Shown here in pieces: positions 2,608 through 24,200 of a DNA stretch of 64,000 nucleotides. Source of the stretch: Periconia sp. R9002. Its lineage: Eukaryota > Ascomycota > Dothideomycetes > Pleosporales > Periconiaceae. The position numbers were made by a program, and so were the translations under genes. The notes below the pieces were generated by a model, which saw only the letters and a list, made by a program, of their open reading frames with translations, had not been told where the DNA came from and made no database searches. The stretch spans positions 415,902 to 479,901 of the forward strand of contig JAMAHW010000023.1 in assembly GCA_023627715.1 (NCBI GenBank), given 5' to 3'. Position 1 is the first letter of the stretch; the number at the start of each line of letters is the position of its first letter.

Positions 2608-3415
2608 TCACCGAAGGAGGAGGAATAGGATAAAGAGGAGGAGCAGGAGGAGAAGGAAGAGTAAAAGAAGAAAAAGAAGAAGAAGAAAATATAACACCCA
2701 AAAAACCCCGGTTATGAGGTACCATATTACTACGTACCACAAGTGGAGTAGCGTCTGTTTATTCCCACATAGCAATTGGATATCCAACATTTGAGCCTTA
2801 ACTTTTGGCAGAGAAAATCCTTCATCGAACGATTTTTCTGGCCGGGCAAACCGATTTTCGATGCCTAAAAGTTCTAGGCATTGGCAGCAACCAAAAAATC
2901 TAGGTTGTTTTAAACCAAACTGGTCCATAGCGCAGGCGTTGAAGCGTATGATTTTCTCATAGCTAAGTGGCTGAGGTGTGTCTGGATTTTCATTTTGAAT
3001 ATCCAACATACATTGTTTATAATCATCAAAATTAAGGTGAACGGAAACAATATGACTTTCGCAAAGCCAATTAATTTCTTTAGCTGGGTGATCACTAAAA
3101 TACAGGGCTAGCGCCATCATTTCGCCCTGTTCTCAATTCCTCAGTAAACTAGTTGGAGGCAGATGGGAGGAAGAGAGCACTTACACAACAGGCATTATTG
3201 TAATGGAGTGGCCAATTAGGCCTTGCACCCTTCGGTTTGAAAGTTGGATCCCTTTCTAGATCAGCTTTCCAATATTGCTTCAAAACGCTTTCGCATTGCT
3301 TTAAAGTGGTATACATTGGATGTTTCTCGCTAATGTTATGTGGGAGGAACTTTGAGTTCGAATGTACAAGGGAACTTGCGAGGTATAACGTATTACCAGC
3401 TGCAAATGCAGTCAT
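2608..3415 (-). CDS. Uncharacterised small protein with deaminase-like Cys motifs
   Basis: Two exons on the minus strand, 3415-3185 and 3126-2608, joined in phase 0 by a 58-bp intron (GTAAGT...GAGAACAG); 249 aa. ATG at 3415 is the first in frame. The splice restores a continuous Cys-Gly-Glu (residues 77-79), and a Cys-x2-Cys follows at 157-160 (GCCQC). A C/H-x-E plus CxxC pair is the zinc signature of the cytidine-deaminase-like fold, which has uncharacterised fungal branches; that link is inference. The C-terminus (about residues 200-249) is almost pure Leu/Phe because it is read antisense through a GA-rich tract, so the true end may differ. No secretion signal is evident. The gene could also be an orphan or decaying. 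Confidence 0.5.
2612..2690 (+). repeat. GA-rich polypurine tract
   Basis: About 80 bp almost entirely of G and A on the plus strand (GGAGGA/GAAGAA units). It encodes the poly-Leu end of the overlapping minus-strand gene. Simple-sequence origin is likely. Confidence 0.8.
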
Positions 3416-12273: not shown

Positions 12274-14633
12274 ATGGATAAAGACCAGCCTATCAGAAGA
12301 CCTAAGCCAAAGCGCACTGCCAGGGCATGCGACGTCTGCTATAGCAAAAAGGTACTCCGTTCTCATCACGCACACGGATCTGAACTTCCGCTTACTCAGA
12401 AATTATTCGGCGTCGTAGATCAAGTGCGACGCTGGATCTCCACGTTGCAATTGGTGTACCCACCAGGATGTGCCATGCACATACGAAAGGAGGGTTGTTC
12501 GGAAAAAATCCCAAAATAGGTACATCCATGAACGTGCAGTAAGACTGGCTCGGCTTAACATGTCCTAGCAAAGATGAGCGTACGCAGTTGCTTAATCGTG
12601 TCGATCGACTAGAGAAGCTTCTATCCATAACGCTTTCGCAGAATGCAACATATCCGTCACCATCAGGTACTTATCCGTTATACCCAACACGAAATCAATG
12701 ATAATGCAATAATATCCACGTGATCAACCCATCTAATATGCCACAGGCTCAACCCCAGAGAGTAATTTCACCAATGAGACACCTGAAGATGATCAGAGTT
12801 CTGTCTTTTCCTCGGGCATAGAGGACTTCAGAATTGGGCATTTTCCTCGCGCTGGCTGGCGGTTGGGAGCCGTCAATCCGTGCAATGGGATTCCCATATT
12901 TTCCGAAGAAGGCCAACGGTGGATGAGCCAGCGAACTGGCGACGAAGCATCGGCTAAAAGAATATGTGAATTCAGTAAGCGCTGGCATCGACAAGCGCTC
13001 TCGGGTTGGGATACGATGCCTAACGGGGTCAAGAATTTGCCGACTCAGTTACCGCCGCGGGAGCTAGTTGAAGAATATCTCGGCTTGTATCACCGATCAT
13101 TCGCATGCCATGCTTTCCCAGTAGTGGATCCATTGCTTTTCAGAAGGACTATCAACGCAGCTTATCGAGAGACCTCAGATGAGAGAACTGCAATTGCGCA
13201 GGCTTGCGTTTATGCATTCATGGCACTAATCGCATGCATGCACATTGATGATGGTAAACCGGAACCTCTTGATACGGAAGAGTATGCCCAGCAGGCCTAT
13301 CGCAGATTAGTTTTTTGCTGCGTTGATGTTTATGTCGAAACTCTGCAGACCACGATTATTTTGGTAATAAACCCAGGACGTGTCTCTCATCAAATTAACC
13401 ATCATGCTAACAACAATTGAAAGGAAATTATCCATGTATTCCTCGGCAACTTCCAACATGCTTTGCTCCAAGCTTCCATTAGCGCACGAACAGTTTATAT
13501 GCTTGGAGCGCATATGATTGACTATCCGGATTGCAGAGACCCAGGTGTTTTATCCACAAATATGGAATATCGTCAACAATACTTGCTAAGAAACCTATTC
13601 TGGGTGTGCCACAGCTGGGTATGTTAAACTCCAGGTACAGAGTCGTTTATTACCGAGACAGCTCATGGTGTGGCGTACTAAGACCCTAATAATGTACGGT
13701 AACCACCCTAGTTACATTTCACTAACTTTGTACCCGCGATATAGGACACAGAACTCTGTATCCGCACAGGCCAGCCACCAGCTTTACAGGACGAAGACTG
13801 TAACACCACTCTGCCTCCGCTCCATGTTTATCAACTATACCCCAAGATCATTGGCTATCAGGTAGATGAAGAAGATATACCAGTGCACCTGTTTCACCGA
13901 CCACCGCGACTGAGCATCATAAGGTCGAAGTTGTACAGCCTTTTGTACTCGCCCCGAGCAGCCAAAAAATCAGTTGCTGAGATCCTCAAGGCAATCAGAG
14001 AGTTGGATGATGACTTGGAACAATGGCGACTATCTGTATGTTCGACACACAGGCCCACCTTTTCGTTTTCTAGCGACAATTTTCCCAAAGATCCAAAAAG
14101 TATGCTGTCTATCATACTTCATCTGGATTATAACTACTGCGTCGCCGCAATTCACAAGACAGCAAGCCAATGCAAATTACCAGGCATCAGCGAGTATGAA
14201 AGTGAGTTCATGGGCGTTGAGTCCAGCCTAGCACTCTCTGTTGAGGCAAGTCGATCGTCCCTATTGTACTTGCAGATGGCGTACCGCATGCTGCCCCCCG
14301 ATATTTTCTGGTAGGTGCCACCTTCTTAACCTCCACAACTCTGAACATGTAGCTAAATTGTCGGCAAGGATGCTTCTCTACTACCCGATGTTGGCAGTTC
14401 TTTCGCTTTTCTATAATATCCTGAACAGCCCGCTTCATCCGCAGTCTCTGAAGGATCTCGAACTCCTCAGCAGTGTCCCCGATATGATTCGCAAATGGCC
14501 AATGGGACGGGTTGGTGAAAAGGAAACGGAACAATTGAGATTAGTCGATGAACTGGTCAGCGAACTGACGCACCTGGGGCGTGGTGCTGTCAATAAAGCC
14601 ATGTCCGAATATCCCTCCCCATATACTGTCTAG
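12274..14633 (+). CDS. Zn2Cys6 transcription factor (fungal-specific TF domain)
   Basis: Seven exons: 12274-12351, 12419-12519, 12569-12666, 12747-13363, 13424-13618, 13745-14310, 14369-14633; 639 aa. Splicing intron 1 completes a perfect zinc cluster C-x2-C-x6-C-x6-C-x2-C-x6-C at residues 19-46, and exon 3 adds a linker/coiled-coil segment (NRVDRLEKLLS). Exons 4-6 carry the fungal-specific middle homology region, including the conserved FW.C...(D)TELCIRTGQPPAL motif, which is split by intron 5. Intron 5 (126 bp) is twice the size of the others and is one of two near-identical introns in this window. The last donor/acceptor pair (14311-14368) was chosen because it alone keeps the frame. Its position next to a PDR transporter suggests it regulates efflux. 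Confidence 0.9.
13619..13744 (+). mobile_element. Introner-like element, copy 1 (intron 5 of Zn2Cys6 gene)
   Basis: A 126-bp intron from GTATGTT to ATATAG with branch site CACTAAC, in phase 0 between codons 363 and 364. It matches 22779-22904 over its full length with no indels (110/126 identical by my count; 11 of 16 differences are transitions). GGTACAGAG (13634-13642) can pair with CTTTGTACC (13726-13734; one G-U), bringing the ends together. Flanking exons are unrelated to those of copy 2, so similarity stops at the splice sites. Confidence 0.85.
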
Positions 14634-21283: not shown

Positions 21284-24200
21284 ATGCGTTTCTCCAGCGT
21301 CATCCTCGCGACCTGCCTAGGGCTCATCATCCCGGGTGATGCCTTCTCGGAAAGACGGTTCGACAGGAGCATTCTTGAAAAGAAAGAGGAAGTTTCATGT
21401 TCAGGAGAACAGCCCTCCTCCGTTGCTCCACACAAGAACTTTTGGGGTGGTTTGACGAAGGCAGAAACTAGGGATGTATTGGCTTTTCTGCACAGTGACG
21501 CCGTCGGATTCAATTTGACGAATGCAAACAATGCTACAAGGTACGCTGGACCTAGCCAAAAGTTTGCGAAAAAGACACTACTAACTCAGCATACAGTCGA
21601 GACAACAAAATGTATGTGTGAAATATATCACCTGCTGCGCACCCAGCTGATGAGACTGACCGGATTTGCAGCATGTCAGTTGAGCTCATGATGCCCAACA
21701 AGACAGACATCCTTCCTCTGCTATCCAACAGTAACGGGACTCCAACTAGGTACGCTTTGGCTGCGGTGATGTTCGGGGCTCCAGAAGAGGCATATCTGCA
21801 GGAGTTCAAAGTCGGCCCTCTGCCAATCACCAATGCGTCGGCTGTGGTACCCTTCACTTTCGCCAACACCAAGAAGAACCCAAAGATATCAGTCGTAAAC
21901 CCAGACACGGAGGATTATGCTACTTTTAACCTAAAGAACATGAAGGATGCGGAAGATGTAACAAAGAAGCTTTGGAACCTCGTGAGTTTGATGTGATCCC
22001 CCACCTTTGGACCTAAGTGGCTGATTCGAGCTTATAAAGACGGTCGATGACGGCCTTCAAGTACCCCTAGCTTTCGCTGCTCCCATCACGGTGTCTGAAG
22101 GCAAGGTCATCATGTGGCAAGGCTTTAATTCCCCAGTTACAAGCATTTACGATCCGATATCTCTTCTGCCGCTTGGCCTCTACATGAGAACGGATATCAC
22201 CGGCCGCGATCCCAGCAAATGGAAGGTGACTGGCTGGGTCTACAACAACGAGTTCTACCCGACCCTGGATGACTTCCGCAAGGTTATCAGTGACCCGAGC
22301 TTTAAGTCTTTGGGAATGAACGTAGATGAGCCTTGGGCTCATACGCGAAAAAACACCGACTCTATGCCTCTTGATGATGTCCCACCACCCGCGCCGGTCC
22401 AAGCAGGCAAGGAAAGATTTGCTGTCAATGACGAGGAAAATTACGTGACCTGGAGTGAGTTATCATCTAAGCCTCGCATACATAACTCAGATGTCTCTAA
22501 TTATTTTCTAGTGGATTTCTCATTCTACGTTAGCATTACCCGCGACAACGGCCTGCGCCTCTACGATGTCCGTTACAAGGGTAAGAGAATCCTCTACGAG
22601 GTAAGCTATGCTTTCACATCATATATTTGGTAATTTGGCTGAATGATATATAGCTTGGAATGGACGAAGCCATCGCACACTATGCGTAAGCCATTACTCG
22701 ATGCATAATCACTTTCACAGCATTCTGAAATGCTTACTTGCTGACTAGGGGAATCGATCCGGTACAGTCAGGCACATGGTATGTTGAACTCCAGGTACAG
22801 AGTCGTTTATTGTCGAGACACCACGTGGTGTGGCGTATTGAGACATTGACAATGTACTGTAACTACCCTAGTTGCATTTAACTAACTTTGTACCCGCGAT
22901 ATAGGTATGGCTTTAAAGTCTCTGATGAACACGTACTTCTGCTAAAAGGATCGCCTCAGTTACTTCGACAGCATGAGCGGCTTTGGACCCCCAATGATCT
23001 CCCTTGTCAAAGGTGAGGACCAAGACAGTGGATGAGCTATTGAACATAACACTGATCTTGGTCCCTTTAGGCTACGACTGCCCAGCCTATTCTCACTTCC
23101 TTAATGTGTCTCAAACTACGGGTGAGACTACATACACGCAGAAGGATGGCCTATGTAAGCCGCACCTTAGAGATTGAAATGAAAGTCACACTACTAACCG
23201 GCTAAGGCATGTTCGAGATTGACAAGGGATTCCCCATCCAGCGTCATTCTTGGGCTGGACACACGACTGTCACCAAAAATATTGCATTCAACGTCCGGGC
23301 TATCTACACTATTGGCAATTATGACTACATGACCACCTATCAGTTCTCCCTGGATGGCTCGATTGAAGTCTCGGTTCGGGCCTCGGGGTATATCTCTTCC
23401 GCCTTCTACGCCCAAAATGAAGACTATGGTTTCAAGATCCATGATAGCCTCTCCGGGTCCTTGCATGATCATGTTATCACCTTCAAGGCTGACTTCGACA
23501 TCTTGGGAGAAGCGAATTCACTACAGAAGGTTGCTATTGTACCGACCACTGAGATGTATGATTAATTTCCTCACCTCCCAAGCATCAAACGAGCCGTATT
23601 GACTTGCGCAAAGGTACAAATGGTCTGAAAATCGAACGCACAAGACAATGAAGGCTGTGAAGAGCTTTATTGAAAATGAAGACGAGGGGAAGATCAACTG
23701 GTCGTCTAATGGTGGCACTATGTATGCCGTTGTCAACAAGGACGCAAAAAACAAATACGGCGAATTGCCTGGTTACAGATTGGTCCCAGCGTCCGGTGTC
23801 GCCTATCTGACGGTCGAGGATTCGGACGTTACTAAAAATGCAGCTCACCACACCAGCCATCACTTCTACGTTACCAGACAGAAAGACAATGAGATGTATG
23901 CGGTCGGAGCATACAACTCTCTGACGCCTGAGGACCCCCAAGTGGACTTCAACGAGTACTTCAATGGAGAATCTCTCGTGCAGGAGGATATGTGAGAGAA
24001 ATTCCTTTCTTTGCAGAATATCACGATCTAACATCATCAGCGTGGTCTGGTTCAATCTGGGCATGCACCACATGCCTCATACTGGCGACCTCCCCAACAC
24101 TGTTTTTTCCACAGCACATTCTGCCATGACCATTGAGCCCTTCAACTATCTGCTGGGTGACCCTTCACAGGCGAGCACTCAGCAGGTCTTGATAAAAACG

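Follow-up and report, generated by a model that had tools for sequence, protein, structure and literature searches.

Why should two unrelated genes carry nearly the same 126-nt unit, and can such a unit make introns? The question arises in a stretch of 64,000 nt of Periconia sp. R9002, here called the window, in which a transcription factor gene and a copper amine oxidase gene contain the copies W1 (13619-13744) and W2 (22779-22904), respectively. As the first-pass annotation had stated, both are 126 nt long and align without gaps, having 110/126 identical bases; they read GT...AG on the + strand, with 9160 nt (the 9.2 kb of that annotation) from start to start. No direct repeat family other than W1 and W2 was found in the window (seed 12, minimum length 40); the repeat is 128 nt long including one G per side, has 88% identity and stops at the element ends, as had been claimed for the splice sites. 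The match is far beyond chance, because W2 is recovered in the whole-genome BLAST with an E value of 7.5e-39. Local copying of W2 from W1, or the reverse, had been considered possible and was rejected: W2 ranks only 19th in nearness to W1 among the other 107 full-length copies described below, and the closest relative of W2, at locus L020, lies on a different contig in unrelated flanks with one core difference. Since a nearly identical copy is found on another contig, the element family has moved recently.

The unit belongs to a large family in this genome (42.9 Mb, 267 contigs). BLAST of the 126-nt unit gave at least 41 matches (the best 40 of 202 candidates scored), and patterns allowing up to three mismatches gave 454 matches for the 5′ end against 189 for the reversed control and 297 for the 3′ end against 20; a stricter 3′-end pattern gave 128 against 0. 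Because the pattern counts exceed their controls, the family size above control is put at about 265-277 copies, and the genome-wide count proposed in the first-pass annotation thus returned a multi-copy element. The first set of loci (L-numbers) comprised 90 loci, namely the 30 best BLAST loci and 60 of 76 further places from the 100 pattern matches listed, and yielded together with the window 105 distinct copies, of which 78 full-length copies were kept and 27 without both ends were left out. The second set comprised 40 further places, 24 picked for a non-T base after ...AGG and 16 with T, and yielded 39 copies, 30 full-length ones kept and nine left out. Duplicates, and copies that came within 40 nt of the end of a locus, had been dropped from both sets beforehand. 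The total of 108 full-length copies, picked by similarity and pattern, is non-random, and statistics on target-site duplications (TSDs) use the first set of 78 only, since the flank had guided the choice of the later one.

Similarity extends to the splice sites at both ends, in alignments of 30 copies with flanks and of 105 copies. Among the 108 copies, no pair shares more than 20/40 upstream flank bases, near-identical copies included, which agrees with the independent insertions into unrelated genes that had been suggested for the two window copies. The family thereby shows the mark of introners, many closely similar introns in unrelated genes (53/108 with GT-AG ends, in unrelated flanks). 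Two loci hold clustered copies: L012 has three on a single strand within about 1.7 kb (1314-1439, 1502-1627 and 2887-3018, -), and L070 has two about 350 nt apart (821-947 and 1298-1426, +), apparently in one mechanosensitive-channel gene.

Judged by protein continuity, W1 is a precise intron whose splicing is predicted. The complete GT...AG intron of 126 nt (13619-13744, +) is preceded by an open coding stretch of 66 codons (13421-13618, +) and followed by another of 189 codons (13745-14311, +). The junction FWVCHSW/DTELCIRTGQPP has no gap against five relatives, and the fungal-specific transcription factor domain PF04082 of the host gene spans it, which bears out the intron that the first-pass annotation had placed here. 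The 123-nt core of W1 (GTTAAAC...ATATAGG, 13623-13745, +), delimited by TSD analysis and by the core alignment of all 108 copies, is bordered by TAT on the 5′ side and ACA on the 3′ side, and W1 has no TSD.

W2 had likewise been called an intron of the copper amine oxidase gene, and this call did not hold: removal of 22779-22904 alone shifts the frame, which is kept only with 22779-22959 (181 nt) taken out. After the 181-nt removal the protein reads HYAGIDPVQSGTCYFDSMSGFGPP, ungapped against 3pgb and four relatives, one of which, a Fusarium xylarioides protein, has the same GTCYFDSM. The exon before W2 (GIDPVQSGT..., 22749-22778, +) and the exon after the removed stretch (...CYFDSMSGFGPPMISLVK, 22960-23012, +) enclose W2 together with a host intron of 55 nt (GTATGG...CTCAG, 22905-22959, +), all of them placed by frame and homologs. 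On this evidence, W2 is a copy that landed on the GTATGG donor of a pre-existing 55-nt intron and now stands in front of it, exactly at the host donor and not a complete intron by itself. Its 123-nt core (22783-22905, +), delimited as for W1, lies between TSD copies TAT at 22780-22782 (+) and TAT at 22906-22908 (+). Splicing of W2 and the host intron in one step or in two would give an identical product. W2 is not a [D1,2] stwintron, as it precedes the whole donor GTATGG and does not lie between donor bases 1 and 2. Additionally, over 74% of the query the amine oxidase fragment (window 22035-23565) shares 87% identity with a Fusarium xylarioides protein, with the next named relatives at about 60% or lower; this gene, with an introner inside it and in a pleosporalean host, is a candidate for horizontal transfer.

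Across the family, 53 of the 108 full-length copies have GT-AG ends and 55 do not. By a coding score whose training drew partly on ORFs from these loci, the GT-AG copies comprise 24 flanked on both sides by sense coding signal, 17 with one-sided or mixed signal, 10 with none and two antisense; the corresponding figures for the 55 others are three, 14, 37 and one, so that in this non-random sample no coding signal surrounds 37 non-splice and 10 GT-AG copies. The open frame across the spliced junction, measured on its shorter side, has a median of 43 codons in GT-AG copies against 17 in the others, and controls with shifted splice positions have medians of 24 and 29. At least 30 codons on both sides were found at 25/40 true junctions against 15 and 20/40 shifted ones, and at least 50 codons at 18 against 5 and 7 (n = 40); the controls are thus only moderately lower than the true junctions. 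Of 16 spliced products scanned, seven have a Pfam domain that crosses the junction (L079, L011, L084, W1, L054, L070, L025), and two more have one at the very edge of it (L026, L014). The product of L028, an acyl-CoA thioesterase, is ungapped through its junction against five relatives; over 87% of the query it shares 96% identity with the thioesterase of Periconia macrospinosa, and the best named relatives belong to the Pleosporales. Removal of the copy leaves a continuous protein at W1 and L028 and does not at W2 alone. The introner-like family proposed in the first-pass annotation therefore stands as to its many copies, its unrelated host genes and the precision of W1, but not as to W2 by itself or the 55/108 copies without GT-AG. 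The same annotation had counted against its own reading a unit lying mostly outside genes with non-splice ends, and half of this picture was found: 55/108 lack GT-AG, 37 of these 55 having no coding signal.

The aligned core of 123 nt (GTTGAACTCCAGGTACAGAGTCG...AACTAACTTTGTACCCGCGATATAGG) has the consensus GTTGAAC...ACTAACTTTGTACCCGCGATATAGG, with an end that reads ATATAGG, and the element ends are GTTGAACTCC... and ...CGCGATATAGG. The three bases before GTTG are repeated exactly after AGG in 41/78 full-length copies, against a mean of about 27 and a maximum of 36 in 2000 within-subfamily permutations, in the register that came out best for length 3 in a scan over shifted registers and TSD lengths of 2 to 6. 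In the copies without GT-AG, splicing cannot select the bases: 18/38 have an exact TSD against a permuted mean of 5.3 and a maximum of 13 in 5000 permutations, and their total of TSD mismatches is 26 against 57.6 permuted, with a minimum of 42. The duplications have a fixed length and differ among sites, as in MITEs, including TAT, TGT, TGC, TGG, TAC, CAT, ACA and ACT, and both sides are identical at, e.g., ACA/ACA, ACT/ACT, CAT/CAT, TGC/TGC and TAT/TAT sites. By position, the target in these 38 copies has T in 22, A or G in 33 and T or C in 35. The base preceding it is A in 15, T in nine, C in nine and G in five, whereas in GT-AG copies it is always G, by the definition of the donor.

The inverted ends are weak, consisting of a subterminal match of the GGTACA type at equal distance from both ends (17/45 in-register matches and a longest run of 6, with shuffling P values of 0.04 and 0.007). 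The element also contains a branch-like ACTAAC, the 3′ splice site ATATAG and a terminal G. GT-AG copies have slightly fewer changes in CTAAC (19/265 against 35/273 in the others; all sites 0.104 against 0.136), a difference too weak to lean on, and a comparison of acceptor constraint is circular, as AG defines the GT-AG class. In the middle of the 108-copy consensus there is a CACGTG near-palindrome (core positions 37-46, CACCACGTGG), which is no better kept than the remaining core (64/515 and 52/537 changes). RNA folding z-scores of -0.68 and -1.97 gave no support for a conserved structure; the consensus fold has -9.85 kcal/mol with a covariation term of -0.09 and two-sided change in 1/25 pairs, and no Rfam match was found in the window at the gathering threshold. 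A search of the genome for the transposase profile PF13359 gave 0 matches, as did PF02992 and PF04827, these last two giving 0 in every control genome as well, so that their result is uninformative.

Here it is proposed that the unit is probably a short non-autonomous, MITE-like DNA transposon that makes introns, with its splicing predicted and its transposase postulated. Because copies without splice ends carry TSDs, a transposon is put forward as the source of the introns, and the introner idea is not refuted by them. TSDs of 3 bp that vary between sites are what cut-and-paste movement with a stagger of three bases leaves behind. The postulated transposase would come from elsewhere and cut a TRY-type target with this stagger, and the element would bring the branch-like ACTAAC, the acceptor ATATAG, its own terminal G and the GT that forms donor positions 5 and 6. 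Where a G precedes the target, a good 5′ splice site would arise from target and terminus together (GTATGT, GTACGT or GTGTGT), the target giving donor positions 1 to 4 and the element positions 5 and 6. Once GTAT...ATATAG is spliced out, exon-G-TAT would be restored, the sequence before insertion, and the gene would be unharmed because splicing leaves the pre-insertion exon sequence. Sense copies within genes could then be retained as introns, and copies outside genes could persist as ordinary MITEs. With 126 bp, the unit may also be too short for the repeat-induced mutation of ascomycetes.

Of the rival explanations, the one that survives best, and is still unlikely, is a classical fungal introner-like element (ILE) copied through RNA only, by reverse splicing into transcripts, reverse transcription and recombination, which would be seamless and without TSDs. 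This has been the usual reading of fungal introners so far, according to the accessible part of PMC9860276, and the absence of TSDs at W1, L004, L011, L025 and L029 (two or three of three bases differ), among them the least diverged copies (0.041), speaks for it. So does the pair L043/L093, which shares the donor bases TAA and has no TSD, as if the whole intron had been copied. However, 55/108 copies lack GT-AG, 37 of them with no coding signal in either flank, the exact TSDs in 18/38 non-GT-AG copies argue against RNA as the sole route, and W2 sits on an intron donor, a site that is absent from spliced mRNA.

The copies without TSD may still hold a second mode of copying. In the first set, 8/40 GT-AG copies differ at two or three of the three TSD bases, and 6/38 non-GT-AG copies differ at two and none at three; the difference between 8/40 and 6/38 is not significant (Fisher p 0.77). 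For four of the eight GT-AG copies, L004, L011, L025 and L029, the absence of a TSD is not due to decay, because they are only 0.041 diverged from the consensus, and the TSD-less W1, L011 and L025 sit inside conserved domains. L043 and L093 have one core difference and unrelated flanks; in both, TAA lies to the left of the core and CAT to its right. Three readings remain for such copies: whole-intron RNA copying, mobilisation of the element with an old flank attached on one side, or, as the arrangement of W2 suggests, insertion at a donor after which the rest of the host intron was lost. Tentatively, one element might be copied in two ways, as a DNA transposon that builds a donor and as a whole intron copied without duplication, e.g., by reverse splicing. 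Products of the second way would be W1, L004, L011, L025, L029 and the pair L043/L093; since 8/40 and 6/38 do not differ significantly, this is a lead and not a result. If true, copying in two ways would bring the DNA-based and the RNA-based view of introners together within a single family.

A further explanation, judged very unlikely, is a MITE that merely lands in or at existing introns, decorating them and creating none. W2, on the donor of its 55-nt host intron, is exactly such a case, and loss of a host-intron remainder could yield a TSD-less copy like W1. Against it, W1, L028 and many other GT-AG copies are flush with coding sequence at both ends, homologs are ungapped across the junctions of W1 and L028, and a Pfam domain passes through seven of the 16 junctions scanned. 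Spread of the intron by segmental or tandem duplication of gene parts, to which the two window copies on one strand 9.2 kb apart and the clusters at L012 and L070 might point, is contradicted by the flanks, with at most 20/40 upstream bases shared by any pair of the 108, and by the confinement of the window repeat to the element ends, and can hardly be entertained.

A second, older related family is also present, with 34 genome matches, one of them the query and the rest at 72-83% identity, and a similar end ...GTACCCGCGAATTTAG. Its copies include L083:1041-1158 (-), L004:2407-2527, L023:941-1068 and L085:1723-1844. L083 holds one copy of each family, in a gene that we take to be that of the RNA polymerase I second-largest subunit.

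Tourist-like MITEs and other small DNA transposons are short, non-coding and multi-copy, have 3-bp TSDs and lie between genes. The Periconia family, read as an intron-making transposon, resembles them in all these features, including its intergenic copies, and differs in its poor terminal inverted repeats (TIRs), its splice signals and the 0 matches for PF13359, PF02992 and PF04827. Among introners, there is a likeness to those of Symbiodinium microadriaticum, in which, according to the accessible part of PMC9860276, a PNAS 2022 survey, the 3′ splice site lies in the element and the 5′ site stems from the TSD; as predicted for the Periconia family, the donor comes from the duplicated target and mRNA length is unchanged. 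The dinoflagellate elements are described there with 4-bp TSDs and clear TIRs, whereas the ascomycete family has 3-bp TSDs and a weak subterminal inverted repeat, and its element additionally gives donor positions 5 and 6. The same part of the survey reports DNA-transposon marks in many introner families and treats ascomycete introners as an outlier, without TSDs or TIRs and with a strong gene bias, read as RNA-copied. The TSD test used here follows the logic of that survey (PMC9860276), and the present family departs from its ascomycete pattern, with 3-bp TSDs above permutation, a weak TIR and about half of the copies read without splice ends.

Seamless or recent multi-copy introns are described in the accessible text of PMC4457414, PMC8469720 and PMC12403724. 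Similarly to the ILEs of Dothideomycetes (PMC4457414, with van der Burgt 2012 cited therein), the Periconia family consists of near-identical introns in unrelated genes, with recent copies about 99% identical and several families of differing age per genome. In Hypoxylaceae and Xylariaceae, the sister stwintrons and cropped introns (PMC8469720, PMC12403724) are likewise multi-copy, and near their termini an inverted pair of 10 nt occurs as it does here, the 3′ arm lying between the branch region and the acceptor; the pair is GGTACARAGT/ACTTTGTACC here and GUAUAAAAAC in the stwintrons. W2 recalls them by its nested arrangement at a donor, but does not separate donor bases 1 and 2, and the stwintrons, unlike the family here, are described in the accessible text with terminal symmetry and no site duplication. 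A literature search on fungal introners found no ascomycete introner with TSDs. Gozashti and colleagues (PNAS 2025) reportedly derive introners from diverse transposons, and their work may already hold fungal cases with TSDs.

An ascomycete family with TSDs contrasts with the reverse-splicing reading that the accessible part of PMC9860276 left for fungi. The origin of new introns is a long-standing question, and the copies between genes act here as controls for splice selection. The simple rule proposed for spliceable insertions, a G before TRY, would make intron origin testable in a culturable fungus.
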